DNA of 64,000 nt from an uncultured Bacteroidales bacterium (GTDB lineage Bacteria; Bacteroidota; Bacteroidia; Bacteroidales; UBA932): contig CALUSM010000012.1 in NCBI GenBank assembly GCA_944323445.1, forward strand, positions 1 to 64,000. Direction: 5' to 3'. Shown piece after piece: positions 3,504-62,563 of the stretch. The notes beneath the pieces are model-generated. The model was given only the letters and a program-made list of their open reading frames with translations. It did no database searches and had not been told where the DNA came from. Position numbers and translations under genes: made by a program. Every line of letters starts with the position of its first letter. Positions within the stretch are counted from its first letter, which is position 1.

Positions 3504-4040
3504 TCAGACAGCCTTTCCCATCTGATATGCCGCTTCCACTTCCGCATGCCCCTTTATGTCTCCTGGGGCATTCACGCCACCGGCGAAAACGGACCCTGCC
3601 AACCGCGCGTTCTCAAAGCACTCGATCCATCCTCCGAGTCCGGTAACTGCGCGTTCCGGAGTCTGAGGGTCCTCTTCGGCCGCAGAACTGAGAAAATAAA
3701 TGTCCCTGAAATGATAATCCGTGGTAAACAGCGGATTGGCACGGTCGAGAAGAGTCTTCAACTGACCGCTCATCCCGTAATAGTAAATGGGGGTTGCAAA
3801 AGCGATGACATCCGCCGCATACATTTTATCCACGATGGCAGGCGCATCGTCAGCGATAACGCATTTCTGAGTTTTCTGGCAGGCCAGGCAGCCAGTGCAG
3901 AAATGCAGGTTCTTTCCTTTCAATGTGATGGATTCCACTTCATTGCCGGCCTCTGCCGCACCTTTGGCAAAGGCTTCGGCCAGTGCGTCAGAATTACTGT
4001 CGTGACGCAGGCTTGATGATATTACCAGTATCTTTTTCAT
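3504..4040 (-). CDS. NADPH-dependent FMN reductase / flavodoxin-like iron-sulfur flavoprotein
   Basis: 178 residues. The N-terminus MKKILVISSSLRHDSNSD is the phosphate-binding start of the flavodoxin-like fold. FCTGCLACQKTQKCVI (near 47-62) is the cysteine cluster of iron-sulfur flavoproteins of the ISF/NADPH-FMN-reductase group, and ATPIYYYGMSGQLKTLLDR (near 81-99) is the FMN-binding loop. Expected to be a cytosolic flavin-dependent electron-transfer or reductase protein. The -7 box TATTTTTG at 4045-4052 ends only four bases before the ATG. Confidence 0.85.
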   Translation of the reverse strand: MKKILVISSSLRHDSNSDALAEAFAKGAAEAGNEVESITLKGKNLHFCTGCLACQKTQKCVIADDAPAIVDKMYAADVIAFATPIYYYGMSGQLKTLLDRANPLFTTDYHFRDIYFLSSAAEEDPQTPERAVTGLGGWIECFENARLAGSVFAGGVNAPGDIKGHAEVEAAYQMGKAV

Positions 4041-4044
4041 ACTG

Positions 4045-4052
4045 CAAAAATA
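4045..4052 (-). promoter_or_regulatory. -7 box TATTTTTG before the FMN reductase
   Basis: Minus-strand match to TAnnTTTG immediately before the ATG at 4040. Transcription would begin at or within a few bases of the start codon, so the mRNA may be leaderless. Confidence 0.45.
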
Positions 4053-4157
4053 GCGCTTTATGACTGAGAACGGATACCTGTTTTACTGAGGAAGGTGAAG
4101 GTTTTACGGATAATCACTTTATTTGTTATTTTTGCAGCAGGAAATCAATTGTGTACA

Positions 4158-4679
4158 ATGAGAAAAGCCAGCAGGGAAATGCCCGCGGAATGGGCTCTGG
4201 AGGTCATGCGTAAGGCCCCGTACATCACAGTAAGTTTCACCCGGGAGGACGGTACTGCCTATGGTCTTCCGCTGTCGCTGGCTTCCGCCGGGGAGGACGG
4301 GCGGGTGTGGTATTTTCACTGCGCCCGGGAAGGGGAGAAGCTCGGGGCGATTGCAGCGCATCCTGAAGTCTGTCTTTCTGCGGTAAGCAAATGTTCTCCG
4401 ACCGTAGGGCCCAAGGACGGCTCATTCACCCTCCAGTACCATTCGGCAGTCGCTTTCGGAAGGGCGGAAACAGTAAAGGACGAAGCCGAGAAAATCCATG
4501 CTCTCCGCCTCATCTGCGAACGTTTCCTGCCCCGGCACATGGACGCATTCGACGAGTCGGTCCGCCGCAGCCTGTACCGTACTGCCGTGGTCCGCATAAC
4601 CCTTACCGCACCGCCTACGGGCAAGCGCAAGCAGTACGACAGGGAAGGGGAGGAGATGAAGTACGGGCGGATGGAGTAG
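4158..4679 (+). CDS. Pyridoxamine 5'-phosphate oxidase-family flavoprotein (NimA-like)
   Basis: 173 residues from the ATG at 4158; an in-frame ATG at 4095 lies before the TATTTTTG promoter box (4127-4134) and is rejected. The split beta-barrel FMN-binding fold is indicated by APYITVSFTREDGTAYGLPL near 20-40, VWYFHCAREGEKLGAI near 50-65 and a late VVRITL strand followed by a basic tail. This group includes 5-nitroimidazole-reductase-like proteins and heme or F420/FMN-binding oxidoreductases; the exact activity is unknown. It ends in a good terminator and is a single gene. Confidence 0.8.
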   Translation: MRKASREMPAEWALEVMRKAPYITVSFTREDGTAYGLPLSLASAGEDGRVWYFHCAREGEKLGAIAAHPEVCLSAVSKCSPTVGPKDGSFTLQYHSAVAFGRAETVKDEAEKIHALRLICERFLPRHMDAFDESVRRSLYRTAVVRITLTAPPTGKRKQYDREGEEMKYGRME

Positions 4680-4702
4680 GATTACGGTGTCCACTGCGCA
4701 CT

Positions 4703-4738
4703 GCCGGACCGGAAGCGTCCGGCAAGATTCTTTTTTTT
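4703..4738 (+). terminator. Rho-independent terminator after the pyridoxamine-oxidase-like gene
   Basis: A 7-bp stem GCCGGAC/GTCCGGC (4703-4709 and 4717-4723) with a 7-nt loop is followed by AAGATTC and a run of eight T. The T-run merges with the -33 box of the next promoter. Confidence 0.8.
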
Positions 4739-4766
4739 GGTTGGAACGGAAGTTTGTCTATATTTG
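4736..4766 (+). promoter_or_regulatory. Promoter of the corrinoid-uptake operon
   Basis: TTTG at 4736-4739 and TATATTTG at 4759-4766, separated by 19 bp, fit the Bacteroidetes -33/-7 consensus. The TTTG is the end of the upstream terminator's T-tract. Confidence 0.75.
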
Positions 4767-4771
4767 CGCCG

Positions 4772-4962
4772 CTGAAAGTTTCCTGTCCGCCGCTCTGCGG
4801 TGGAGGAATTAAAAGGGAACCGGGTGAGAATCCCGGACAGTTCCCGCTGCTGTAATTTCCACGTCCTTCGGGACGGAAGTCACGCGGTAATCTCTTTAGC
4901 CACTGCCTTATGAGGTGGGAAGGCTGCCGCGATGAGGAATAAGTCAGAAGACCTGCTTTCAA
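4772..4962 (+). ncRNA. Cobalamin riboswitch
   Basis: Conserved cobalamin-riboswitch elements occur in order: AGGGAACCGGGTGAGAATCC with CCGGACAGTTCCCGCTGCTG following (4814-4853), GCCACTG (4899-4905), GGGAAGGCTGCCGCG (4917-4931) and AAGTCAGAAGACCTGC (4941-4956). It lies between the promoter and btuB, where adenosylcobalamin or a related corrinoid would be expected to repress the operon. The ends are approximate. Confidence 0.95.
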
Positions 4963-5090
4963 CTTGGACTGTCTGCCCTGCGGGAGTACGGGTGCGGCAA
5001 TGCTGAATGGTTTTCTTCTTCAGGAACAGACAGTCTGCCCTTGTGCCGTATGGTACGGGGAAATCCCGGGAGTTGGAAAATTATTTGGCA

Positions 5091-7148
5091 ATGAATTATA
5101 AGAAAGCAGGTACAGTTTTACCTATCATCACGCTCATGCTGTCTCTGACAGCCGCGCTCCGGGCCCAGGACGGAATCCCGGAGACACCCGTCGATACCCT
5201 CGGCGAGGTGGTGGTCACAGCTGAGCGGATAAGAGAAATCGTGCCGGCACAGAGACTGTCCGGACAACAGCTCCAAAGGCTTAGTTCCAATTCGATAGCC
5301 GATGCCCTCCGCTATTTCTCAGGCGTGCAGATCAAGGACTATGGCGGCATAGGGGGCCTGAAGACGGTCAATGTCCGCAGTCTCGGCAGCCAGCACGTAG
5401 GGGTATTCTACGACGGTATACAGATATCCAATGCCCAGAACGGGACGGTGGATCTGGGCAAGTTCTCCATGGACAATATGGAGGTACTGTCGGTATATAA
5501 CGGGCAGAAGAGCGATATATTCCAATCTGCCAGGGACTATGCCTCTGCGGCAGCGCTGTATATGGTCTCGCGGAGGCCTAAATTCAGCGGAGACAGACGG
5601 AACAATCTGAATTTCAAGTTGCGCAGCGGCCCATTCGACCTCATCGACTTCTCGGGCCTGTGGGAGCACCGCCTGGGCCGGTATTTCAGCACCTCGGTCA
5701 ATGCGGAATTTCTCAGTACGTCAGGGCGCTACAAGTTCCGGTACCAGAGGGACGGAGGCTACGACACGACCGAGGTGCGCCGCAACGGGGACGTGATGTA
5801 TGTCAGGGCGGAAGCGGGCCTGTTCGGGCAGATGCCGGGGACGGACTTCATGCTCAAAGGCTATTTCTACTGGTCGGAGAGGGGCTACCCCGGGGCGGCG
5901 GTCAAGGAGGACTACGGCATATCGCTTCTGAACGAGGACCGGCAGAAGGACCGCAATATCTTCGTGCAGTCGGCGGTTACGCACCGGGCGGCGGATTTCT
6001 ACAGTTTCAAGCTACAGGCCAAATATGCCAATGATTACATGAACTACACAATGCCTCCGCACAGTACCCTCCAGCCGATGGACAATCATTACTGGCAGCA
6101 GGAGCTTTACCTGACCACCTCGCACCTTTTCTCGGCCGGTAGGATCTGGAGCGCCAATCTCTCCTGCGACCTTCAGTGGAACAGTCTGGAAGCAGACGGT
6201 ACGGAGATGTTCAATGCCAATTTCATCCGGCCGCGCAGGCTGACCGTCCTCTCGGCAGCGGCCACCTCGGTCAATTTCGGATTCGGTCTCAGCGCCCAGG
6301 CCAGCCTGCTCTACACCTGCGTCCATGATGTCAGCAAGCGTGGCATGGAGACGGCCGGGGACAAGAACGAGTGGACTCCCACGGTGATAGTCTCCTATAC
6401 TCCGTGGAAGAGGGCAGGCCTGAGCCTGAGGGCTTTCTACAAGAAAATCTTCCGCATGCCTACTTTCAACGACCTGTACTACGTCCAGCTGGGCAACCGC
6501 AACCTCAAGCCCGAATATACCACCCAGTACAACTTGGGCGCGGCTTATAAAAAGACCTGGCGCCACAACTGGTTCACCGGACTGCAGGCCAGTGTGGATG
6601 TGTACTACAACACCGTAAAAGACAAGATTATAGCCACCCCTACCTCGAATCAGCTTGTGTGGACTATGGTCAACCTGGGATACGTGGAGATCCGCGGTGT
6701 GGATGTCTCCGTGACTCCTTCGTTGCGCTTCGGACCGGTCAATGTATCGGCCAGGCTGAACTACACCTGCCAGAAGGCCCAGGACTTCACTGACAGTAGA
6801 AAAGAGGAAGGATATGAGGGAGTCATCAGCACATACGGCGACCAGATACCTTACGTGCCGCTGCACAGCGGATCGGCTGTGGTGAGCGTCAGTTACCGGA
6901 CCTGGGACTTCCACTACAGCTTCGTCTACACCGGTGAGAGATACATGCTGGGCGGCAATGTACCGGTCAACTACATCCAGCCCTGGTACACGAGCGACCT
7001 CTCAGTCTCAAAAATATTCCGCATAAAGAAGATGGACATAGGGGTGACTGCGGAGGTAAACAACATCTTCAACCAGCAGTACGAGGTGGTGAAGTGGTAT
7101 CCCATGCCGGGCACTAATTTCAGAATAACATTAAGTCTTGCAATATGA
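5091..7148 (+). CDS. btuB: BtuB-type TonB-dependent corrinoid receptor
   Basis: 685 residues from the ATG at 5091; an upstream in-frame ATG at 5007 lies in the riboswitch tail and is not preceded by a signal. A signal peptide is present (LPIITLMLSLTAALRAQ), then a TonB-box-like DTLGEVVVTAER near residues 36-47, a plug domain (SSNSIADALRYFSGVQIKDYGG, VNVRSLG, YDGIQISNAQNG), and a 22-strand-type barrel ending in an aromatic-rich terminal strand (NFRITLSLAI). Control by a cobalamin riboswitch and linkage to a BtuG-like lipoprotein identify the substrate as corrinoid. It would sit in the outer membrane and be powered by TonB; no BtuCDF inner-membrane transporter is in this window. The stop overlaps the next gene's ATG by 4 bp. 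Confidence 0.93.
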   Translation: MNYKKAGTVLPIITLMLSLTAALRAQDGIPETPVDTLGEVVVTAERIREIVPAQRLSGQQLQRLSSNSIADALRYFSGVQIKDYGGIGGLKTVNVRSLGSQHVGVFYDGIQISNAQNGTVDLGKFSMDNMEVLSVYNGQKSDIFQSARDYASAAALYMVSRRPKFSGDRRNNLNFKLRSGPFDLIDFSGLWEHRLGRYFSTSVNAEFLSTSGRYKFRYQRDGGYDTTEVRRNGDVMYVRAEAGLFGQMPGTDFMLKGYFYWSERGYPGAAVKEDYGISLLNEDRQKDRNIFVQSAVTHRAADFYSFKLQAKYANDYMNYTMPPHSTLQPMDNHYWQQELYLTTSHLFSAGRIWSANLSCDLQWNSLEADGTEMFNANFIRPRRLTVLSAAATSVNFGFGLSAQASLLYTCVHDVSKRGMETAGDKNEWTPTVIVSYTPWKRAGLSLRAFYKKIFRMPTFNDLYYVQLGNRNLKPEYTTQYNLGAAYKKTWRHNWFTGLQASVDVYYNTVKDKIIATPTSNQLVWTMVNLGYVEIRGVDVSVTPSLRFGPVNVSARLNYTCQKAQDFTDSRKEEGYEGVISTYGDQIPYVPLHSGSAVVSVSYRTWDFHYSFVYTGERYMLGGNVPVNYIQPWYTSDLSVSKIFRIKKMDIGVTAEVNNIFNQQYEVVKWYPMPGTNFRITLSLAI

Positions 7149-52024: not shown

Positions 52025-52771
52025 ATGCTCAGCGACCGCATCCCCTCCAGGGCCGACATCAGGCTCATCCGCTCCCTCGGACAGAAAAAATTCCGGGAGG
52101 AGCTGGGGCTTTTTGTCGCCGAAGGGGAGAAAATGGTCGGGGAGGCCCTGACGCAGAAGCGCTTCCCCGTGGAGGCGGTCTACCGTCTCTCCGATGTCGG
52201 GGAGGAGGTCATGGGACGGATGAGCCATCTGTCGTCTCCCTCCCCTGCCCTCGCCGTGCTGCGCATCCCTCAGGAGGTGATGCAGGACAATGCCCCGGCC
52301 CCCTCATTGCCCTCAGGCCTCTGCCTCGGACTGGACTCCGTCCGCGACCCGGGGAACGCCGGCACCATCCTGCGCCTTGCCGACTGGTTCGGCATCGACA
52401 CCGTCTACCTCTCCCCCGACTGCGTCGACCTGTATAACCCCAAGACCGTCCAGGCCACCATGGGCTCCATCTTCCGCCAGCGGGCCGTCACCTGCGACCT
52501 TCATGCGCTTGTGCGCGGATGCACCGCCGCCGGAATCCCCGTCTACGCCACCGCCCTCGACGGAGAGGACATCCGCTCCGCCGCTCTGGACACCTCCCGG
52601 GCATTGATCCTGATGGGCAGCGAGAGAGACGGCCTCTCCCCCGCCCTCATGGCCGCCGCCACACGCAGGCTGCGCATCCCCTCATTCGCCTCCAACCCCG
52701 ACGGCGCCGCCGAATCCCTCAACGTGGCCATCGCCACCGCCGTCACCTGCTACGAGTTCCGCCGACGCTGA
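52025..52771 (+). CDS. TrmH/SpoU-family RNA 2'-O-methyltransferase
   Basis: 248 residues. An N-terminal substrate-binding region (ADIRLIRSLGQKKFREELGL) precedes the SPOUT knot: LGLDSVRDPGNAGTILRLAD near 99-118 (motif 1 with N and R), LILMGSERDGLSPAL near 196 and RRLRIPSFASNPDGAAESLN near 215-234 (motif 3). Methylates a ribose in tRNA or rRNA using AdoMet; the target is unknown. It starts 18 bp after the preceding gene. Confidence 0.9.
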   Translation: MLSDRIPSRADIRLIRSLGQKKFREELGLFVAEGEKMVGEALTQKRFPVEAVYRLSDVGEEVMGRMSHLSSPSPALAVLRIPQEVMQDNAPAPSLPSGLCLGLDSVRDPGNAGTILRLADWFGIDTVYLSPDCVDLYNPKTVQATMGSIFRQRAVTCDLHALVRGCTAAGIPVYATALDGEDIRSAALDTSRALILMGSERDGLSPALMAAATRRLRIPSFASNPDGAAESLNVAIATAVTCYEFRRR

Positions 52772-52868: not shown

Positions 52869-53999
52869 ATGGAAACTGTAAATCGAATTCTTCAAGATCA
52901 AATTAAAGCGCGTATGGCCCCTAACAAAGCAGTGCTGATATTTGGTGCCCGCCGTGTCGGGAAAACGGTAATGATGCGTAAGATCGTGGAAGATTACCCA
53001 GGCCGGACAATGATGCTTAATGGGGAGGATTACGATACGCTGGTCCTGTTGGAGAACCGCTCCGTTGCCAACTACCGGCATCTGCTGGAGGGTATCGATC
53101 TGCTGGCAATCGATGAGGCGCAGAATATTCCGCAAATTGGCAGTGTTCTTAAACTGATTGTAGACGAGGTGCCTGGAATCAGCGTCCTTGCAAGCGGCTC
53201 ATCTTCATTCGACCTTTTAAACAAGGCCGGGGAACCGTTGGTCGGCCGGAGTACACAATTCCTCCTTACACCATTCTCGCAGCGGGAGATTGCACAGACG
53301 GAAACACCGATCGAGACTCGCAGGAAACTCGAAGCCCGACTGATTTACGGCTCTTACCCGGAAGTGGTGATGATGGACAGCTTCGAGCGCAAGACAGATT
53401 ACCTGCGTGACATAGTCGGTGCCTATCTCCTGAAGGATATTCTGGCTATCGACGGGTTGAAAAATTCAGGCAAGATGCGCGATTTACTGCGGTTGATAGC
53501 TTTTCAGCTGGGCAGCGAGGTATCATACGAAGAGTTAGGAAAACAACTTGGTATGAGCAAGACAACCGTTGAGAAATATCTGGATCTGTTGGAAAAGGTG
53601 TTTGTCGTCTACCGCATGGGGGCTTATTCCCGCAACCTGCGAAAGGAGGTGACAAAGGCCGGAAAATGGTACTTCTATGACAACGGCATACGCAATGCTG
53701 TCATCGGAGCCTTCTCACCGCTGGCCATCCGGCAGGATGTTGGTGCTCTATGGGAAAACTACATTATCGGAGAACGGCGCAAAACGAATTTTAACGATTT
53801 ACTCCACAAGGAATTCTACTTTTGGCGTACATACGATAAACAGGAGATTGACCTTATCGAGGAGTCTGCTGATAGTCTGACCGCATTGGAGTTCAAATGG
53901 GGCAACAGGACTCCGTCAGTGCCAAAAGTTTTTCAAGAAGCATATCCGCACGCTGAATTTCATGTGGTCAGCAGGGAAAATTATCTGGATTTCGTGTAA
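52869..53999 (+). CDS. AAA-family ATPase with DUF4143 C-terminus
   Basis: 376 residues. Walker A is AVLIFGARRVGKTVMMRK near 19-36 (GARRVGKT), with LLAIDEAQNIPQIGSVLKL near 77-95 as Walker B. The C-terminal DUF4143 domain begins with YGSYPEVVMM near 155, includes MSKTTVEKYLDLLEKVFVVY and ends with a nuclease-like EFYFWRTYDKQEIDLIEES and LTALEFKWG (D-x-ExK pattern). These ATPases are abundant accessory genes in Bacteroidales; function is not established. It ends 33 bp from the convergent prfH. Confidence 0.88.
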   Translation: METVNRILQDQIKARMAPNKAVLIFGARRVGKTVMMRKIVEDYPGRTMMLNGEDYDTLVLLENRSVANYRHLLEGIDLLAIDEAQNIPQIGSVLKLIVDEVPGISVLASGSSSFDLLNKAGEPLVGRSTQFLLTPFSQREIAQTETPIETRRKLEARLIYGSYPEVVMMDSFERKTDYLRDIVGAYLLKDILAIDGLKNSGKMRDLLRLIAFQLGSEVSYEELGKQLGMSKTTVEKYLDLLEKVFVVYRMGAYSRNLRKEVTKAGKWYFYDNGIRNAVIGAFSPLAIRQDVGALWENYIIGERRKTNFNDLLHKEFYFWRTYDKQEIDLIEESADSLTALEFKWGNRTPSVPKVFQEAYPHAEFHVVSRENYLDFV

Positions 54000-54032: not shown

Positions 54033-54632
54033 TTATAATGCTCCCGAGAATGTTTTCACGGGATTCCCGCGCATAAGTGCAGTATGCCGGCCCCATTTGG
54101 ACGCACGGAAAGATGCCGCAGCGGAGTCTTTTCTTTGCTGCAGTTTCAGAAGAAGCAGGCTGCGTGCCATTTCTTTGTTCTGCGACTGCGAGCGTTGGCT
54201 GCTGCACTTGACGGAAATTCCGGTCGGCAGATGGGTGGCCCGGACAGCCGTCTCCACTTTGTTTACGTTCTGTCCTCCGTGTCCTCCCGAGCGCATTGTT
54301 TCATACACAATGTCTTTATCCGACACATCCGGAAATGAGATGGGATCAATAAACTCCACGCCGACAAACCAGTTCCTGCGAGGATGGCCGGGACGGTAAG
54401 GGTTTGATGCCGCACGCCAGAGAACCGTTCCGCTCCACTCTTGTTCCTTGGCCGGATCTACTTCTGCAAGAAACAGCATCGACATGTAGCAGTCCGGCTC
54501 CGTGTTGTGAGGTTCGCTTTCCACGAGCTCCGCATCTGGAAAGTCCTTCAGCAGTTCACCGGCTACCAGCGTGACGGCACGGGCACATTCCACGGGGCCC
54601 CGTCCGGCTGTGAGCTGTATATACTTTTTCAT
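54033..54632 (-). CDS. prfH: Peptide chain release factor H (PrfH)
   Basis: 199 residues. The GGQ catalytic motif is at 119-121 in [20 protein letters not shown], with a basic tail ([20 protein letters not shown]). It lacks the codon-reading domain of RF1/RF2, as expected for PrfH. It hydrolyses peptidyl-tRNA on damaged or stalled ribosomes. PrfH is typically encoded next to RtcB and is thought to rescue ribosomes cut at the decoding centre. The start overlaps the rtcB stop by 4 bp. Confidence 0.92.
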
Positions 54633-55828
54633 TGGGGAATATCTTTAATGTTTAAGCGGGGTCTGACCATAGTGATGACTTCTGCAGTAGGTTCAATCAG
54701 GCGCAATATCTCTTCCGTCGGCTTATATGCCTGTGGCGACTCGTCGAGCGTACCGGAGCAGACGGAGGTGGAGAATATGCCGTTCATGGACTTTTCAAAC
54801 TCTGCTATCCCGATATTTTTCTTAGCGGCACTTCTCGACATGGCGCGTCCGGCTCCATGCGGAGCGGAACAATTCCATTCGGGATTGCCTTTGCCCACGC
54901 AGACAGCGATACCGTCGCGCATGTTGAAAGGCAGGCAGAAGCGTTCTCGTTCGGCGGCTTCAACTGCTCCTTTGCGCAGCATGGGATATTCCCCGCATAC
55001 GGAAATATAATTGTGCGTGGTGAATATAGACTCCAAGCATTTGGCCTTGCAGAGCTTTTTCAAGATTGCGAAAATACGGTCACGGATGATATGATGGTTG
55101 TAGTGGGCATACGCCTGCGCAATGACCATATCGGAGAGATAGCCGTTAAGTGCATCTCCCCACAGATAGCCGACGAATTGCGCACGCTTGGGATTCTGCG
55201 CGATGTTGTGCCAATGGTTTGCCACTTTTACCCCCACGTTCCGGGAGCCGCAATGGATAGTCAGCCATCCTTCATGCGTTTGCTCGTCCTCACCGTATTC
55301 AATGAAGTGGTTGCCTCCGCCGAGAGTGCCGAGACTTTTATAGAATATCGCTTCCTGCAACTTTATCCTGCGGCAGAAATCTGAAACGAAACGGGCATCT
55401 ATGCGCGGCGCTTCGTTAATCAGGTCAGGAGCGGATGACCGTGCTTTCCGGTATTGCGAGTCAAGAAAGCGGAACAGTTCCTTTTCATTCAGGCTGTTCT
55501 TCGCACAAATCTCCATGCCGGTCGGGATGGCCTCACGGATTCTGTGGTCAAGCAGGGCGAAATCTTCCGGAGCGACTGCGGAAGATAGCCTGTGCATGGA
55601 AATGGTACATCCGATGTCCACACCCACATGGTCGGGATTAAGATATGCCCCTATCCGGTACACCGTACCTACATTGCACGAATTTCCTGCATGAACATCA
55701 GGCATCTGCACTATCCTGACACCCTCGAATGCCGGATGGTCGCATTGCGCCTTCACCCACTGCAAAGCCGCATCCTCAATGTTCTCCGTGAATATCTCAG
55801 CCGAAGTGTATTGTCCTTTGATTATCAT
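54629..55828 (-). CDS. rtcB: RtcB RNA ligase, PrfH-linked type
   Basis: 399 residues. Metal and catalytic residues of RtcB are recognisable: D71 and C74 (GVDIGCTIS), H174 ([13 protein letters not shown]), H192 ([10 protein letters not shown]), H272 (TTHNYIS), and the guanylylated histidine at 324 in [17 protein letters not shown]. It joins 2',3'-cyclic-phosphate or 3'-phosphate RNA ends to 5'-OH ends. Coupled to PrfH, its likely target is cut rRNA or tRNA. It lies 42 bp after an unknown gene. Confidence 0.94.
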
Positions 55829-55870
55829 ATTGTAACTAGGCCTCCTCCATTTTGCAATTCCTGCCGGAAA

Positions 55871-56839
55871 TTATTTTCCGACAAATACAAACAAGGAGAT
55901 TCTACGGCTATTTATAATGTAATTACTCTTATATATCCCCTTCCTCACTATCAAGATCAAATCTCTGTCAAAGAAATCACTAAGGCTATCCACCTCATAC
56001 CCCATCAACGGAGATGACGGCTTATATGAAATCGACAGTAATATCGCAGCAATATTCTTTGTACAATGCTTTCTTATTTCTGCTAAGGCTGTTCTCATTT
56101 GATCGGAAAGCGTACACGGAGAATCAACAACCACCTCCATGGCAAGTTCATATTTGTTTGAAAACTTATAAAAATCATCCATGTCCATTTGAATCAGTCC
56201 TTTCGGCTGTGCTACATTGAAAAAGTAGTCGTTTTCTATTTTCTGTTTGTCCGTGGTGATGCGTACCGTTTCCTTTATATTTTTCAGAAAATCAAGAAGT
56301 TTCTCATCCTCGCAATTCCAACGGGAAGTGACGGAGATTATTTCTGAATCTGGTCCCGTGATTACGGCGATCAGGGACTTCCCGTACTCATCGTGCGGGA
56401 AGTCTTTTCCGGGGAAGGCCGGTATCTTCTCCATATCGTCCCGGATGTAGAACTCAATGCTGTTCTTTCCATAGTCGGAATGTCCGTCATAGGCGACCTC
56501 AGATTCCAGTATGCACCAGTCGGGAGCGTACTCCCTGTACTTGCGGGCCTGCACGAATGAGGCTATCCGCTCTATCCTGTACCTGTGAGGACCCTCTGAA
56601 TGGTATTCCTCCGCATCCAAATCTATATTGACACTGTTCTTCACAGCTTCAAACGACTGCCCGTTGAAGTCCCCGTCGTAAAAGTCGAATGCAGGAGAAT
56701 TGCAGATGACTTTCAGGAGGGCTATGACGCGGGCCTTCCCTTTCTCAGTGTCAAGGTCGATTTCTCCGTCGTGGCTCCACCTGAGGAGCCCGGGATAAAA
56801 GGTATTGTACGGATAATTTAGATTCAGTTTGTCTTTCAT
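55871..56839 (-). CDS. Unknown protein of the RNA-repair-type island
   Basis: 322 residues, no family recognised. The start is MKDKLNLNYPYNTFYPG and there are no membrane helices or signal. Visible features: EGPHRYRIERIASFVQARKY near 82-101, LESEVAYDGHSDYGKNSIEF and ISVTSRWNCEDEKLLDFLK near 170-188. The last part (FDRDLILIVRKGIYKSNYII, then RRISLFVFVGK) is basic and hydrophobic. The composition is of a soluble protein. It overlaps the metallohydrolase gene upstream by 4 bp (ATGA), so it is probably made stoichiometrically with it. Confidence 0.75.
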   Translation of the reverse strand: MKDKLNLNYPYNTFYPGLLRWSHDGEIDLDTEKGKARVIALLKVICNSPAFDFYDGDFNGQSFEAVKNSVNIDLDAEEYHSEGPHRYRIERIASFVQARKYREYAPDWCILESEVAYDGHSDYGKNSIEFYIRDDMEKIPAFPGKDFPHDEYGKSLIAVITGPDSEIISVTSRWNCEDEKLLDFLKNIKETVRITTDKQKIENDYFFNVAQPKGLIQMDMDDFYKFSNKYELAMEVVVDSPCTLSDQMRTALAEIRKHCTKNIAAILLSISYKPSSPLMGYEVDSLSDFFDRDLILIVRKGIYKSNYIINSRRISLFVFVGK

Positions 56840-58116
56840 TGGACTCGTATTTCAATATCATCTATAGTCGTGTCGCTTGTCACCACCCTGTCCTTCAATT
56901 CATCGGAAATGTCAAGGGACGTGAAGTCACTTCCTTTTTCCCGATGTATGGGAATAATGGCGGAAGTGGGATTCACTGTATTGCAAACCATTGCAAGAGC
57001 ATCCCGCGAGGCATGTCCGGATGTGTGCAGATACTCCAGGTTCCAGTCGTGCGAATGTACGAATGAGTCTGTCGAAGCGCTGTATGCGGTATGCTCCGTA
57101 AGGATATACCCCTTGAACTGGGAATATATGAAGACCGTCTCTTCTTTTGGCAGCAGAGGCATCAGCTCATCCAGCCATCCCCTGAATTTGTCGGAGTTAC
57201 GCACAACCATGGTAAACCCTGTGTCCATCAGGGGATGCCGCAGAGTCCCGTCGTATTCAACTGCATCTGTAAAATCATATATTCTGTGGTTGCGTTTTAA
57301 TTGCTTTGTGAATGTTTCCAACAACTTACACTGATACCCGTCCGCTATGAACGGTCGGCCTTGATGACGTGTCGCCTGATAGAACGATGCAAGCCTGTCC
57401 GGGTCGGTCGAAGAACATAGAACAAAAGTATATTTGTAACCGGACATCAGTTCATACGCCTTCTGCTGCAGTTCTTCTTCTGACATCATCCTCACATCAT
57501 TTCTGGAAAGCATTGTGCCCTCGGTGATTAGAACATCAATACTTTTCCTTGCAATAAATTTGCTCAATACGCCCTTCAGGTATTTACCCAGATAGCCGTG
57601 GTCCCTGAAATCCCCTGTGTGCAGGATTTTCTTGCCATCACACTCTATCACGAACATATAGGCATCGGCCGCCGAATGGCTTACATAGTATGGAGTAATC
57701 TTTATGTCGCCGACAGTTACAGGCATATCGGCTCCATATTCTTTGAACCCTCCTACAGCCTGGAATGTAGACTTGTACTTCTGCTTCAGGCTGTCCACGG
57801 GAATATTCTGCATGTGAGCATAGAATTTCTGTTTGACCCTCTTGGCCAGACGCCCCAGATATTGATCCACTCCTCTTTCGGCGACAGCTGCTTCAAATGC
57901 TAAATGATCCCCGTCATAGTGAGTATAGAACACCGCCGATACCCCGTCGAGCAGCCGGTCCAGATTCTCCGGGACATCATACTCGTCCTCGACCTGACCT
58001 TCCGTGTCCGGAAGATTGTGCCCCAGGTCGATGAGTATCTTCGTTCCGGATGCAGACTCTATCCCGGTGATGCAGCCTCCGATCTGGTTTATTCCGCGGT
58101 GGATGGTTATTTTCAT
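56836..58116 (-). CDS. Beta-CASP-like metallo-beta-lactamase-fold hydrolase
   Basis: 426 residues. MBL start KITIHRGINQIGGCITGIES near 2-21. The metal motif reads FYTHYDGDHLAF (H66, D68, D70, H71), i.e. HxDxDH in place of the usual HxHxDH. Other ligands: H147 (YYVSHSAADAYMF), D169 in ILHTGDFRDHGYLG and a late histidine in YLHTSGHASRDAL. The long middle insert with ITEGTMLSRND and VLCSSTDPDRLASFYQATR resembles the beta-CASP insert of RNase J/CPSF nucleases. Probably an RNA or DNA nuclease; the altered ligand may change metal use. It overlaps both neighbours by 4 bp. Confidence 0.82.
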   Translation of the reverse strand: MKITIHRGINQIGGCITGIESASGTKILIDLGHNLPDTEGQVEDEYDVPENLDRLLDGVSAVFYTHYDGDHLAFEAAVAERGVDQYLGRLAKRVKQKFYAHMQNIPVDSLKQKYKSTFQAVGGFKEYGADMPVTVGDIKITPYYVSHSAADAYMFVIECDGKKILHTGDFRDHGYLGKYLKGVLSKFIARKSIDVLITEGTMLSRNDVRMMSEEELQQKAYELMSGYKYTFVLCSSTDPDRLASFYQATRHQGRPFIADGYQCKLLETFTKQLKRNHRIYDFTDAVEYDGTLRHPLMDTGFTMVVRNSDKFRGWLDELMPLLPKEETVFIYSQFKGYILTEHTAYSASTDSFVHSHDWNLEYLHTSGHASRDALAMVCNTVNPTSAIIPIHREKGSDFTSLDISDELKDRVVTSDTTIDDIEIRVQ

Positions 58117-59132
58117 TCTCCTTTTCTATATAAATTATCTTTGAGTGTTCCATAAAATGAAGTTGGATTCCCGTTTTCATTTTCATCTTTATTGAAATAT
58201 AAAGTCCTAGGAATCAAGTTGACATTCAAACCATTAACAGGTATTTCGTCCAACTCTCCCTCCTCTGTTCCTTCCTGCCCACGCATTATAGGCATTATAG
58301 TCGCAACTATTATTTCGACAGGCTTATCTTTTAACAGAGACCCTTTTTTAAAACCAAATACTTTTTCCCACCAGAATGTACCAGATTTGCTTCTTAACAG
58401 GTATGCTATAAATGTTGCATAAGCAAGAGCCTGCCACATAACTTCTTTTTGGGGCTCACTTTGCTTGTTTTCATCTTTGAGCTCCATTATCGCCAATTTG
58501 GCATTGTTATTCTCATCTTTAATTCTAGCAAGGATATCAATTCCACCTCCGTATTGTTTTGAATAGTCAATGTCTTTGTTATGGTCGCTGGCTTTAATAG
58601 GGGTTGGCATCTGGAAAAATAAACCACCTAATCTTACAGGCTGAATACTACATAGTTTCTTTTTAGAAGCTCTCGTTCTCTTTGAGAATTCAGATAATAA
58701 AAACTGTTCAATCTTATGCTCTGGACTATGAGAACTACTTTTAACAGATTTGAAATGCTTTCTGAAATTCTTTGCATCGACGGAATCCCATTTCACTTCG
58801 TCGCTGTCCCAAGTTTTGTAATATTTAAAATATTTGGAATTACTTTCTTTTTTCCCCTTAGTATTCAAATACACTTCTCCGTTTTTTACTGTAATTTCCC
58901 CAATGCTTTGCCCCTGATGTCTAAGGTCGTAACTTGTTGTATATTTTGTGCATTTTTCTACTCGTGAAATACTGCTATATATGTTGAGCGGACTCGGTAT
59001 CCGGAACTTTTTTCTATCTCTAGCATATTGGTCCAAATCAATTTTTTTTGCATAATTTGCATATCTTTCGTCCCATTCAAGGTTCTCTTTTAAAAGTTCA
59101 CTTGCCTTTTTTACAATCTCAAAATTATTCAT
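58113..59132 (-). CDS. PD-(D/E)XK-like putative nuclease
   Basis: 339 residues, lysine-rich. A nuclease-type core is suggested by E142 in EHKIEQFLLSEF, D199 in GGGIDILARI, E217-L-K219 in AKLAIMELKDENK and Q235 in EVMWQALAYATFI, in the order E, D, ExK, QxxxY. A long N-terminal part with beta strands (SIGEITVKNGEVYLN) is of unknown role. Its bases are much more AT-rich than the core genes, suggesting recent acquisition. It starts 23 bp after the preceding gene and overlaps the metallohydrolase gene by 4 bp. Nuclease activity is inferred from these residues. Confidence 0.7.
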   Translation of the reverse strand: MNNFEIVKKASELLKENLEWDERYANYAKKIDLDQYARDRKKFRIPSPLNIYSSISRVEKCTKYTTSYDLRHQGQSIGEITVKNGEVYLNTKGKKESNSKYFKYYKTWDSDEVKWDSVDAKNFRKHFKSVKSSSHSPEHKIEQFLLSEFSKRTRASKKKLCSIQPVRLGGLFFQMPTPIKASDHNKDIDYSKQYGGGIDILARIKDENNNAKLAIMELKDENKQSEPQKEVMWQALAYATFIAYLLRSKSGTFWWEKVFGFKKGSLLKDKPVEIIVATIMPIMRGQEGTEEGELDEIPVNGLNVNLIPRTLYFNKDENENGNPTSFYGTLKDNLYRKGE

Positions 59133-59155
59133 AATGTATTAGTTTTAATGTGTCC

Positions 59156-59701
59156 CTAATTCTTAAGTAGTTTCTGATTTTTGATATAAGAAACTTCCTC
59201 CATCTCTTCGAGTATAGAACATCCAAAAAGTTCTATGCCATCTTCTGATTTACGTGATCTCGCAGGAGGACAAAGGAGGAGCGCCGGGCGTCCCTTTGCA
59301 TATGCGTGAAGCATAAACTTGATTTCGCTCCTCTTCGCGCGTATCCCTCCGTCTTTAAAATCCTTGATATCCAAGCCTTCAAGACAGTCGACGATGAATG
59401 ATTGTATCTGCCCCTCCTCTATCATTACAGCTATTCTGTCACATAGTTTTTTACAGTCACCATCCTCGAGATTCTCTGCATAAATTTTTCCTGTCCTGCC
59501 GTGAAATCCTTCAAAATAAAGGTACTCAAATTCTTTCGCCGTACCTCGCGTAGAGAAATAAGCAGTCGTCATGTTGTATTCACGACTGAGCTCTGCCGCA
59601 AGTTTCGCTGCGAATATCACTTTATCGCGGTTTGCACAGTTGATACAATTAAGTCCACGCTCAAAAACTCCGGGGATTTCTTTAAATTTCTGATATCTCA
59701 T
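59156..59701 (-). CDS. Degenerate RecA/DnaB-like ATPase-fold protein (unknown)
   Basis: 181 residues from the ATG at 59701; an ATG at 59761 would overlap the preceding gene. The start KFKEIPGVFERGLNCINCAN leads to RDKVIFAAKLAAELSREYNM and TTAYFSTRGTAKEFEYLYF, resembling the first strand-loop-helix and the FSxE strand of DnaB-C/RecA folds, but the loop reads INCANRDK and has no P-loop GKT. The end (RPALLLCPPARSRKSEDGIE, LFGCSILEEMEEVSYIKNQK) resembles the late DnaB strands. No ATP hydrolysis expected. The assignment is by pattern only. Confidence 0.5.
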   Translation of the reverse strand: MRYQKFKEIPGVFERGLNCINCANRDKVIFAAKLAAELSREYNMTTAYFSTRGTAKEFEYLYFEGFHGRTGKIYAENLEDGDCKKLCDRIAVMIEEGQIQSFIVDCLEGLDIKDFKDGGIRAKRSEIKFMLHAYAKGRPALLLCPPARSRKSEDGIELFGCSILEEMEEVSYIKNQKLLKN

Positions 59702-59753
59702 ATTTTTATTTTTATGCAAAGGTACGGGATGCTTCGGCAAAAAAATGGCAGAT

Positions 59754-60308
59754 TCAGACAAATGTTGAAATATTGATAAAGTTGACTGCGCCGATCTCCT
59801 TCATTCCACCAGTCCTGTGGATATGACCGAAGAGATGGTACTCCGGCCGCGCTTTCAGAACGAAGTTCAGTATCTCGGGGCTGCCGAATCCGTCGTCCAA
59901 TATGCCATAGGGAGGATAGTGAGTCACCAGTATGTCGATATCCGTCGGGATGTATTCGTCCGCTATCCGGCTGTTCCCGGATAGCGAGCCTATTACAACG
60001 CCGTCAAAATCGTCCACAGCATCTTCCATCAGGACGATTCCGTACTTTGCGAACAACGGTCGGACTCTGTCTGCCTGACAGATATCGAAAGACAGTTCGT
60101 GATTGCCGGGGATGAATATTCTGTAATCGCCAGGCTGTGCCGAGAACCAATCCAGAAAATCATCGTAATCACCTTCCCTAAGATTGTCCTCCACTGCATC
60201 ACCGGCGCAGATCAGAATGTCCGTGTCAGCCGGTATCGTAACTTGCCGGTGGGCACCGTGTGTATCCGCGAACGCAAATATCTTCTTTCCCTTATACGTC
60301 AGTTCCAT
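59754..60308 (-). CDS. Calcineurin-like metallophosphoesterase
   Basis: 184 residues. All five metal motifs are present: D15 and H17 (FAFADTHGAHR), D37 (ILICAGDAVEDN), N69-H70-E71 (FIPGNHELSFD), H130 (ILVTHYPPYG) and H162/H164 (LFGHIHRTGG). Small cytosolic two-metal phosphoesterase; possible substrates include cyclic phosphates at RNA ends or cyclic nucleotides, not determinable here. It overlaps the upstream WYL gene by 17 bp. Confidence 0.9.
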   Translation of the reverse strand: MELTYKGKKIFAFADTHGAHRQVTIPADTDILICAGDAVEDNLREGDYDDFLDWFSAQPGDYRIFIPGNHELSFDICQADRVRPLFAKYGIVLMEDAVDDFDGVVIGSLSGNSRIADEYIPTDIDILVTHYPPYGILDDGFGSPEILNFVLKARPEYHLFGHIHRTGGMKEIGAVNFINISTFV

Positions 60309-61206
60309 TGTATTGTTTATTGAGTCTTCTGACCATATCTCCGATTGCCTTTCTCACCTCCTGAGGCTCAAGCACCTCAACACTGTCCCCGAATGACAGG
60401 ATATCCTGCTTGAAATCATAGTCGGGAGTAATGAAATATCTGAAGACAGTGAACTCGGGGTTCTCTTCTACAATCTCCTGGGACTTATGAAGCGGCAGGG
60501 ACCTGAAGTATTTCGCCTGTCTGGCGGAAACCCTGAGAATGACTGTCTCCGGTTTCATGTCAGGATATACTCTTGTACCGTATATCCCTTCAAAATACTC
60601 ATGTGCATTGAAATTCTTGGGAAGCGTGAACTTCTCCGTCCCGATCTCCATACTCAGCATCCTGTCAAGTGCAAACATGTGCGGCTCGGCATCACCATTC
60701 TTATGAGCGTACAGATACCACCGTCTCTTGAATTCGCGGAGGCAGTACGGCTCCAGTACTAAACTCCTGGGGACAGGTCCGTCGTAACTGTGATAAGTGA
60801 CATTCAATACATTGTTGTTCCGGATAGCCTGGATAACCGTGGTTAGGTACTTTTGGCTTGAAGGCACATCCTCGAACAAAATCCGGTCCTTAAGTCCGGC
60901 ACTCCCGTCCAGGAGACTGTTCAGGCTCAATGCCGCGAGCATCCAGTTTCTCACGCTGTTGCCGCCAATCTCGCTTTCGTTGTCAATGTAATATGTATTG
61001 TCCCTGCGGTCACACGCAATGTCGATACCGAAGATATCGGCGATGGAGTGAATATGATTGTAAAATGTGCGTGCCGCCAATTCCTTGCCCTCATCATTCA
61101 CAGAACTGCGCAGCCATAGACTCTGAAGCTCTTTCAAAGTAAGACGTCCTCTGCTCTGCAGTATTTCCAGCAGCCAGATATAACTTTTGAAATAATTCTT
61201 TGCCAT
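60292..61206 (-). CDS. WYL-domain transcriptional regulator
   Basis: 304 residues. N-terminal winged helix-turn-helix (residues ~1-60, SRGRLTLKELQSLWLRSSVN). The WYL domain has W163-Y164-L165 in EFKRRWYLYAHKNGDAEPHM, and a WCX-type C-terminal extension runs from residue ~215 to the end. WYL regulators bind nucleic-acid or nucleotide ligands in several cases and often control defence or DNA/RNA-damage loci. It is the first gene of the eight-gene series, and a palindrome sits over its own promoter, consistent with autoregulation. Confidence 0.92.
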   Translation of the reverse strand: MAKNYFKSYIWLLEILQSRGRLTLKELQSLWLRSSVNDEGKELAARTFYNHIHSIADIFGIDIACDRRDNTYYIDNESEIGGNSVRNWMLAALSLNSLLDGSAGLKDRILFEDVPSSQKYLTTVIQAIRNNNVLNVTYHSYDGPVPRSLVLEPYCLREFKRRWYLYAHKNGDAEPHMFALDRMLSMEIGTEKFTLPKNFNAHEYFEGIYGTRVYPDMKPETVILRVSARQAKYFRSLPLHKSQEIVEENPEFTVFRYFITPDYDFKQDILSFGDSVEVLEPQEVRKAIGDMVRRLNKQYNGTDV

Positions 61207-61209
61207 ATT

Positions 61210-61236
61210 CCTTATATGTGCTTTGCAAATGTAAGG
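61210..61236 (-). promoter_or_regulatory. Palindromic operator/promoter of the WYL-led operon
   Basis: CCTTATATGTGC (61210-61221) and GCAAATGTAAGG (61225-61236) form an inverted repeat with 10 of 12 matching pairs and a 3-bp centre. A -7 box TACATTTG (minus strand, 61226-61233) lies inside the right arm, and the palindrome ends 4 bp before the WYL ATG. Confidence 0.6.
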
Positions 61237-61377: not shown

Positions 61378-62412
61378 TTAGGATTCACTACGAATAGGTA
61401 GTTCTTTGCCAAAAGCCTCCACTTCTTCAGCCACAACTTTCTTTAATTCTTCCTGCGGAACAATCAGTTGATAGTCTGCCACACCAATGGGCTTGCCCAT
61501 ATCTTCCAATGCCAGTTCCACTTCTACACGATCTTTCTCAGCACATAGAATTATGCCGATAGAACGGTTTTCATCATCCCTTCGCTCCAGACGGTCAAGC
61601 AATGATAAGTAGTAGTTCATCTTGCCTGCATATTCTGGCTTGAATTCGCCAATCTTCAAATCAATAGCTACAAGACAATGTAATCCGCGATGAAAGAAAA
61701 GCATATCTACCTTACTCCGTTTTCCATTGTATTCAAGTACATACTGATTGCCAATATAAGTGAAACCTCTGCCAAGTTCCAAAAGAAATTGCTTTACCTT
61801 CTCTACCAGTCGAGTTTCAAGTTCTGTTTCTAATATTGGGTCTTTGACGCCTAGGAATCCAAGGTTATAACCGCTTCTGAATACCTCATTGGCAAACATT
61901 GCCTGTGTGGCGGGCAGAGTTTGCTGGAAATTGTTATCAGAAGGATCAATCTTCATTATATGCATTTTCAGAGATATGGCACTGGATAGAAGTTCACGAT
62001 TCCAACCTTTTGAAATGATTTCCTGCGCATAGTATAAAATGGCATTGTCATCTTCTCCAAACTTCCGCATCAAAGTAAGTATATGCCCCCATGGTAAAAC
62101 TGCGACAGCCTGTCGCAGTTTTGGATCGCTATTACAGAAACGTTCATAGAATTTTTTCATATCCCACAGATTTCTTGGAGAAACACCCATCTGTGGATAC
62201 CGTTGCTTTAAGTCATAAGACAAACGATTGACCACACCACTTCCATGCTTGCTCTCGACTTTTCTATCGTGAAGCAATTTTCCGATTTCCCAATGAGCTG
62301 TACCAATGGCAGCACACATGGTTGTCGCCACCATAGATTTTGTCCTGTCAATAACTGCGACAGCCTGTCGCAGAATTGCATCGTACTCTGATTCTTGGAT
62401 TTTATCTGTCAT
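61378..62412 (-). CDS. DUF1016 PD-(D/E)XK nuclease-domain protein (YhcG-like)
   Basis: 344 residues. The N-terminal DUF1016 region (TTMCAAIGTAHWEIGKLLHD, then RLSYDLKQRYPQMGVSPRNL) is followed by a PD-(D/E)XK nuclease domain: FTYIGNQYVLEYNGKRSKVD near 216-235 and MLFFHRGLHCLVAIDLKIGE near 236-255 (D-LK pattern). It has markedly AT-rich bases relative to rlmD and recurs widely on restriction-type and phage islands. Role unknown, possibly Holliday-junction or restriction-associated. It has its own start and is not obviously joined to the WYL series. Confidence 0.9.
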   Translation of the reverse strand: MTDKIQESEYDAILRQAVAVIDRTKSMVATTMCAAIGTAHWEIGKLLHDRKVESKHGSGVVNRLSYDLKQRYPQMGVSPRNLWDMKKFYERFCNSDPKLRQAVAVLPWGHILTLMRKFGEDDNAILYYAQEIISKGWNRELLSSAISLKMHIMKIDPSDNNFQQTLPATQAMFANEVFRSGYNLGFLGVKDPILETELETRLVEKVKQFLLELGRGFTYIGNQYVLEYNGKRSKVDMLFFHRGLHCLVAIDLKIGEFKPEYAGKMNYYLSLLDRLERRDDENRSIGIILCAEKDRVEVELALEDMGKPIGVADYQLIVPQEELKKVVAEEVEAFGKELPIRSES

Positions 62413-62563
62413 GATCTCAATCTTTTCCAGTCAAAAGTTCACGCTTGTCAATGTAAACAATGTTGCTACTATGTCTAATGCGTACAAGTCTAACTGGGAT
62501 GCATTATACAACGATTGCAAAATTAGTAAATTCCTTTCGAAAAGTTTCCCTATTTTTGCGCCC

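Follow-up and report, generated by a model that had tools for sequence, protein, structure and literature searches.

Among described systems, the RtcB2-PrfH operon protects from colicin E3, which cuts 16S rRNA, and repairs the ribosomes that this colicin has cut (PMC9223846). Guard and decoy systems such as PARIS, Ronin, EcoprrI-PrrC and Panoptes sense an attacker via its target, and the parts of a 2025 review of viral-effector-triggered immunity used here mention decoys in bacteria solely in connection with restriction-type proteins and with nucleotides (PMC12409349). In this study, we analyzed a putative eight-gene operon in a 64,000-nucleotide stretch of an uncultured Bacteroidales bacterium (GCA_944323445.1, contig CALUSM010000012.1, positions 1 to 64,000; hereafter the window), which combines RtcB and PrfH with a metallo-beta-lactamase (MBL) enzyme, a putative nuclease, a metallophosphoesterase (MPE), a WYL regulator and two proteins without any Pfam family. 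With a probability of roughly 0.4, we read this locus as a horizontally acquired, probably WYL-regulated conflict system, most likely directed against phages, in which truncated essential proteins would serve as bait. The eight genes all lie on the minus strand, exactly as an earlier sequence-only reading had described them, and its identification of the WYL-WCX, metallophosphoesterase, MBL-RMMBL, RtcB and PrfH proteins was borne out by family searches:

60292..61206, minus strand: WYL-WCX transcriptional regulator, 304 residues (PF13280, 1.1e-14; PF25583, 5.4e-12)
59754..60308, minus strand: calcineurin-like MPE of the PDC-S10 family, 184 residues (PF00149, 1.6e-11; PADLOC PDC-S10, 1.7e-39)
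59156..59701, minus strand: DnaB/RecA-like protein without a P-loop, 181 residues, ATG start (homologue in locus L053; hhalign to DnaB)
58113..59132, minus strand: putative PD-(D/E)XK nuclease, 339 residues, GC content 0.349 (invariant active-site residues, seven homologues)
56836..58116, minus strand: RNase J-like MBL/beta-CASP enzyme, 426 residues (PF12706, PF07521; alignment of 20; profile match in the PDB)
55871..56839, minus strand: 322-residue protein, whole open reading frame (ORF)
56270..56839, minus strand: domain A of the 322-residue protein, residues 1-190 (separate gene in L053 and L054)
55871..56269, minus strand: domain B of the 322-residue protein, residues about 191-322, predicted FtsZ C-terminal domain fold (Foldseek, VIA-align, hhalign)
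54629..55828, minus strand: RtcB-type RNA ligase, 399 residues (PF01139, 1.6e-54)
54033..54632, minus strand: PrfH release-factor homologue, 199 residues (TIGR03072, 187 bits)

Compared with the described RtcB2-PrfH operon, the window pair shows the same adjacency, with rtcB directly 5' of prfH and a 4-bp overlap, retains the RtcB motifs and the GGQ of PrfH (at 119), and its PrfH passes the TIGR03072 cut-off (187.4 against 166.65 bits). It differs in standing behind a nuclease operon and in its RtcB, which scores 74.9 bits on the PrfH-linked RtcB model TIGR03073, below the cut-off of 271.8. The MBL shares its core and the beta-CASP motifs HTSGHA and PIHxE with RNase J/beta-CASP ribonucleases and with Cas14 of type VII CRISPR, and its profile matches both in the PDB (RNase J 5e-29, Cas14 2e-17). 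Of the catalytic motifs, motif 4 is present too, but HxHxDH is altered at its second His (see below). In contrast to these enzymes, it measures only about 426 residues, which is shorter than RNase J, remains far under the NCBIfam cut-offs (RNase J model 34.8 against 400 bits) and resides in variable operons with nucleases. The MBL fold is also found in the anti-phage 6A-MBL family (NCBIfam NF058524), for which our literature search returned no paper; here, the window MBL scores 18.8 bits, the cut-off being 220. By its score, the MPE is a member of PDC-S10, which PADLOC treats as a candidate of its own, whereas here it forms part of a multi-gene system. Strong matches of the core genes to PADLOC models were confined to the WYL models and PDC-S10, and these genes match no named anti-phage system in PADLOC 2.0.0. 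The sequence-only reading knew of no named system that covers the stretch from WYL to RtcB, and this holds for PADLOC, Pfam, NCBIfam and PHROGs. Sensing an attacker via its target would be common to this locus and the guard and decoy systems, but according to the parts of the review used, what those systems monitor are anti-restriction proteins, or their decoys are nucleotides, whereas the candidate baits here are truncated essential proteins (PMC12409349). A search of the open-access literature returned nothing on truncated essential proteins (FtsZ, replisome) as baits in bacterial immunity, although an earlier description is possible.

Comparison of related loci shows that the 322-residue protein, which had been listed as an unknown, joins two exchangeable domains. 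In L053 and L054, domain A is encoded on its own downstream of the MBL, and in genome G290 it is attached to a phosphoesterase; no relative is known outside MBL loci, and the PDB holds none within an E-value of 5. Domain B corresponds to a separate gene of 140 residues in L054, and the structure model of the whole protein is confident for this domain only. Here, the best 50 Foldseek matches are all FtsZ, and a VIA-align superposition on residues 192-315 of Staphylococcus aureus FtsZ covers 116 residues (Z 11.9, root-mean-square deviation 2.9). An FtsZ profile scores domain B 31.5; one of 250 control ORFs scores higher (102.5), but this ORF is the FtsZ-like gene that neighbours the MBL of L125, and the best other control reaches 29.9. 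On this modelled evidence, domain B has the fold of the FtsZ C-terminal domain and retains its T7-loop region. Neither domain B nor the 140-residue protein contains the GTPase domain expected of a division protein, and the host's own full-length FtsZ gene is located elsewhere in the genome, as is its full-length DnaB gene.

The second protein without a Pfam family, which has a homologue in L053, aligns with the C-terminal domain of DnaB, but the P-loop (Walker A) is absent and replaced by NCINCANRDKV or YCVDCNYELTK. Its hhalign score against DnaB (32.0) exceeds the best of 400 controls on its own side (27.2), whereas on the side of the DnaB profile the best controls score higher, and there was no hit in the PDB. 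The earlier DnaB-like call is thus plausible but weak, and the protein probably adopts a RecA-type fold without a P-loop. No viral relatives of it were found.

Truncated versions of essential proteins are not restricted to the window. Besides the two described above, we detected 22 copies in 15 MBL loci (1.31 Mb in total); a control set of 20 loci from the same order, covering 312 kb, yielded none. From usual gene numbers, we estimate that 1.31 Mb should contain about three such genes, all of full length. Among them are accessory proteins of 165-177 residues matching the palm of DnaE (2e-9) that have lost the catalytic PDIDIDF (L054, L040, L120, L131, L118, L129), while longer palm and finger copies of 476-545 residues have one catalytic Asp changed (L055, L096, L060). 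In L089, the genes MBL, MPE and WYL are followed by a sigma-70 protein that has regions 2 and 4 and lacks region 3, together with one piece each of DnaE and of an FtsZ-like protein; L125 pairs its FtsZ-like protein with a DnaE palm. L057, L060 and, more weakly, L130 contain a piece of GyrA that matches the model over about 60 residues (positions about 391-450) and from which the catalytic part is absent. Profile scores are 2.2e-35 for a DnaA ATPase domain, which keeps its P-loop, and 4e-12 and 2e-16 for sigma regions 2 and 4. Beside the MBL/nuclease locus L119, five consecutive genes (3858-6618) encode an FtsZ fragment, a DnaA ATPase domain, a zinc-ribbon protein, a DnaE piece and a SLOG protein.

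Taken from sequence comparison, these results indicate that some MBL loci carry exchangeable truncated copies of essential proteins, most of which lack the catalytic part or have altered catalytic residues, and the association with the MBL is well supported. An alternative that we consider distinctly unlikely is that such loci are hotspots for unrelated cargo, where captured host-gene fragments or plasmid and phage replication genes collect beside the MBL and nuclease. The region is indeed mosaic and mobile, phages carry DnaE relatives, and L134 represents a viral contig with DnaB and DnaE genes. Chance collection, however, sits poorly with the position of the copies, which lie within the gene run, mostly on the same strand as the MBL and at most 3 kb from it. 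In five comparable copy pairs, the ratio of non-synonymous to synonymous polymorphism (pN/pS) is 0.23-0.45, which indicates purifying selection and, therefore, maintained genes rather than decaying fragments. Genome-wide searches point in the same direction: among the DnaE matches listed for 295 genomes, the sole palm-only one (G258) is separated from its MBL by 36 bp, the remainder being long DnaE frames or contig-end pieces, and a further accessory family of 172 residues has two strong matches in these genomes, both adjoining an MBL. To our knowledge, plasmids do not usually carry pieces of FtsZ, GyrA or DnaA.

Proteins that bind the same host machinery are known: DnaB is a target of lambda P, sigma region 4 of AsiA, FtsZ of SulA and GyrA of CcdB. 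The bait function that we propose for the copies would build on such contacts. The copy would be bound as well by a phage or plasmid protein that attacks FtsZ, the replisome, gyrase, DnaA or sigma, and such capture would release or activate the MBL/nuclease pair, leading to the destruction of nucleic acid. Exchange of copies would then alter which attackers are detected. WYL would control expression, the MPE might process ends or a nucleotide signal, and RtcB-PrfH could repair rRNA and rescue ribosomes cut during the conflict. In its specific form, an immune system whose interchangeable dead FtsZ, DnaE, DnaB-like, GyrA, DnaA and sigma-70 pieces bait phage takeover proteins and are wired to the MBL/PD-(D/E)XK pair, this proposal is tentative, and we consider it less likely than not.

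The same copies could also act as poison subunits, which we regard as an unlikely explanation, albeit the main rival one. Released on infection, they would enter the FtsZ filament, the replisome, RNA polymerase or gyrase and block them, bringing division and replication of the infected cell to a halt, while the nucleases would add to the arrest. What has been kept in the copies fits this idea, since catalytic parts are gone and interaction parts remain, namely the FtsZ C-terminal domain with its T7-loop region, sigma regions 2 and 4, and the DnaA ATPase domain with its P-loop; WYL control would likewise suit an effector that needs to be silent. A dead DnaE palm of 170 residues or a GyrA piece of about 60 residues would, however, probably make a poor dominant-negative on its own.

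A number of observations weigh against bait-based immunity. About 90 of the 105 MBL loci that we read contain no recognised copy, the control set is small (312 kb), and genes for DnaE, DnaB and sigma factors are also found on phages and plasmids. Within the window, the link of the DnaB-like protein to DnaB is weak, and an Asp at residue 68 of the MBL (see below) makes its activity uncertain. In comparisons with the profiles of six host proteins, the other accessories (the 172-residue family, one of 180 residues, one of 134 residues and domain A) showed no resemblance to any of them. Both the role in immunity and the connection between copies and nucleases are inferences from gene content.

If the copies are bait, they would represent a bacterial decoy strategy resembling plant resistance genes; integrated-decoy logic is known from plant immunity, and our literature search did not turn it up for bacteria. 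Each copy would then name a host process that is hit by unstudied phages, so that phage targets in Bacteroidales could be predicted by reading the copies. As poisons, they would instead constitute a new kind of effector built from the host's own machinery. In either case, the MBL/nuclease core is a system that is widely distributed, across three phyla or more, with partner nucleases that have almost no family annotation, and together with the truncated copies it may form a so far undescribed defence system.

Across the loci compared, the MBL is the hub and constant part of this system. It occurs patchily in the order (26/295 genomes) and at no fewer than 576 loci in the genome collection, Bacillota included, as well as in nine viral contigs and on twelve plasmids; none was found in phage records. 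The counts given next for PD-(D/E)XK, WYL and MPE neighbours refer to the 105 loci read, in which the core recurs in Bacteroidota, Bacillota and Proteobacteria. A PD-(D/E)XK homologue lies at most two genes from the MBL in 53 loci, WYL at most six genes away in 27, and an MPE stands beside it in 26. The core, as judged from these neighbourhoods, consists of the RNase J-like MBL and the PD-(D/E)XK nuclease, often with a PDC-S10 MPE and WYL. Five of the 24 PDC-S10 loci in the 295 genomes adjoin an MBL, against our estimate of about 0.01 expected by chance among the eight genomes with both. Regarding recurrence in distant genomes, WYL, MPE, nuclease and MBL are found together, but a fixed eight-gene unit is not.

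The solved chain nearest to the MBL is Enterococcus faecalis EF2904 (PDB 2az4), deposited as a hypothetical protein. In the window MBL, the second His of HxHxDH is replaced by Asp68 (codon 68, 57913-57915), whereas 105 of 106 relatives keep the motif, and the enzyme may therefore be altered or impaired. A single base change would suffice for this replacement, which could be a real alteration or an assembly error. On a Butyrivibrio plasmid, WYL, a 278-residue protein with a D...ELKK motif and the MBL are encoded consecutively.

For the partner nuclease, the PD-(D/E)XK assignment of the sequence-only reading finds no Pfam support above chance but is backed by the active site, as E142, D199, E217-x-K219 and Q234 are invariant in seven aligned homologues. 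Almost all genes in the nuclease slot (73/75) lack any Pfam family. Partners recognised by the nuclease profile stand beside the MBL on plasmids of Ochrobactrum (1.5e-27), Rhizobium (5.8e-20) and Sphingomonas (1.6e-11). Foldseek returned no significant match for the predicted fold; HincII (Z 2.0-2.5) matches weakly, and we did not accept HincII or the McrB DNA-binding domain as a clear fold relative, both being at Z 2-3 only.

The RtcB-PrfH pair is, by comparison of loci, an appended cassette that is separable from the nuclease core, because the closest relatives of the window locus lack PrfH or both genes and the pair stands without an MBL elsewhere. These relatives, L053 (72% MBL identity) and L054 (69%), contain WYL, MPE, one or two accessories, a gene of 129/134 residues, a nuclease-slot gene of 268 residues, the MBL and free-standing domain A. 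In L054, RtcB follows without PrfH, and L053 has neither. PrfH exceeds the cut-off in 10 of the 295 genomes, RtcB lies at most one gene from PrfH in nine of the ten other PrfH loci of the order, and the same 399/199-residue pair occurs without an MBL in G028, G183 and G292 (RtcB being truncated in G292). A supposed PrfH near the MBL of L121 was rejected, as the match belongs to an ordinary release-factor gene that is broken up into several ORFs.

The sequence-only reading had taken the eight genes for one self-contained RNA-damage response, in which WYL would sense damage, MPE and MBL would trim RNA ends, RtcB would religate them and PrfH would rescue ribosomes. Some of its elements deserve consideration: the MBL resembles RNase J, ribosomes that colicin E3 has cut are repaired by RtcB-PrfH (PMC9223846), and a sixth PDC-S10 MPE stands before RtcB-PrfH in G028. 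The RNA-repair enzymes HAD_SAK_2 and KptA also lie beside a few other MBL loci, which keeps an RNA theme in play. The separability of RtcB-PrfH, however, led us to reject a fixed RNA-repair operon. RtcB or PrfH is present at just two of the MBL loci read, both in close relatives. Such a response would also leave the FtsZ, DnaE, GyrA, DnaA and sigma copies unexplained. The FtsZ fold and the dead DnaE, GyrA, DnaA and sigma copies therefore favour sensing or poisoning of essential host machinery over RNA end-trimming, and we consider an RNA-damage response improbable. In G028, the operon ending in RtcB-PrfH (L178, 6997-13998) begins with the PDC-S10 MPE and continues with a uracil-glycosylase-like protein, a fusion of GNAT and AAA+ domains, DprA and a 252-residue protein of unknown function. 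In other MBL loci (L088, 1031-1531; L130, 6352-6852), the accessory slot is occupied by HAD_SAK_2, a phosphatase domain of RNA repair, and by a protein resembling low-molecular-weight phosphatases.

Further accessory families were found beside the MBL. The 172-residue family (alignment A9) is present in L085, L039, L066, L068, L078, L098 and others; a PD-(D/E)XK protein split over three ORFs (172, 70 and 90 residues) was considered and rejected, as the 172-residue ORF is an MBL-linked family of its own. A conserved family of 166-186 residues without known relatives (alignment A10) precedes the nuclease in L055, L057, L058, L059 (where it is duplicated), L060 and L096. For the 172-residue and 180-residue families, the PDB contains no relative within an E-value of 5. 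The proteins of 129 and 134 residues before the nuclease-slot gene (L053, 6701-7087; L054, 6753-7154) are 71% identical and absent from the window, and against the PDB they gave low-complexity-like matches only.

The layout of the window locus adds two features:

59717..59745, minus strand: Bacteroidetes-type promoter-like site (pattern scan, TTTTTTGCC...TACCTTTG)
52772 to about 62510, no strand: insertion with the operon, a DUF4143 ATPase and a YhcG nuclease (flanks adjacent in G296; GC dip)

The junctions of -17, +52, +23, -4, -4, +42 and -4 bp agree exactly with the ORF list; the sequence-only reading took them to mean very probably one operon. The promoter-like site, however, lies in the gap of 52 bp, some 15 bp upstream of the start codon of the DnaB-like gene, so that WYL-MPE and the remaining genes may be two separate transcripts; the relaxed pattern has only 21 matches on both strands of the 64 kb. 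No Rfam match pointed to a non-coding RNA in the island. The flanking genes, a TrmH-type gene ending at 52771 and an RlmD-type gene beginning near 62510, are directly adjacent in G296 (L194), a genome of the same family, and the block between them is therefore a variable insertion. Its GC content drops to 0.40 (window 0.532) and forms a mosaic by gene, with 0.349 for the nuclease, 0.366 for domain B, 0.492 for domain A, 0.515 for RtcB and 0.550 for PrfH. Inside the same insertion, the operon is flanked by the DUF4143 ATPase (52869-53999) and the YhcG nuclease (61378-62412), which correspond to the PADLOC candidates PDC-S01 and PDC-S02.

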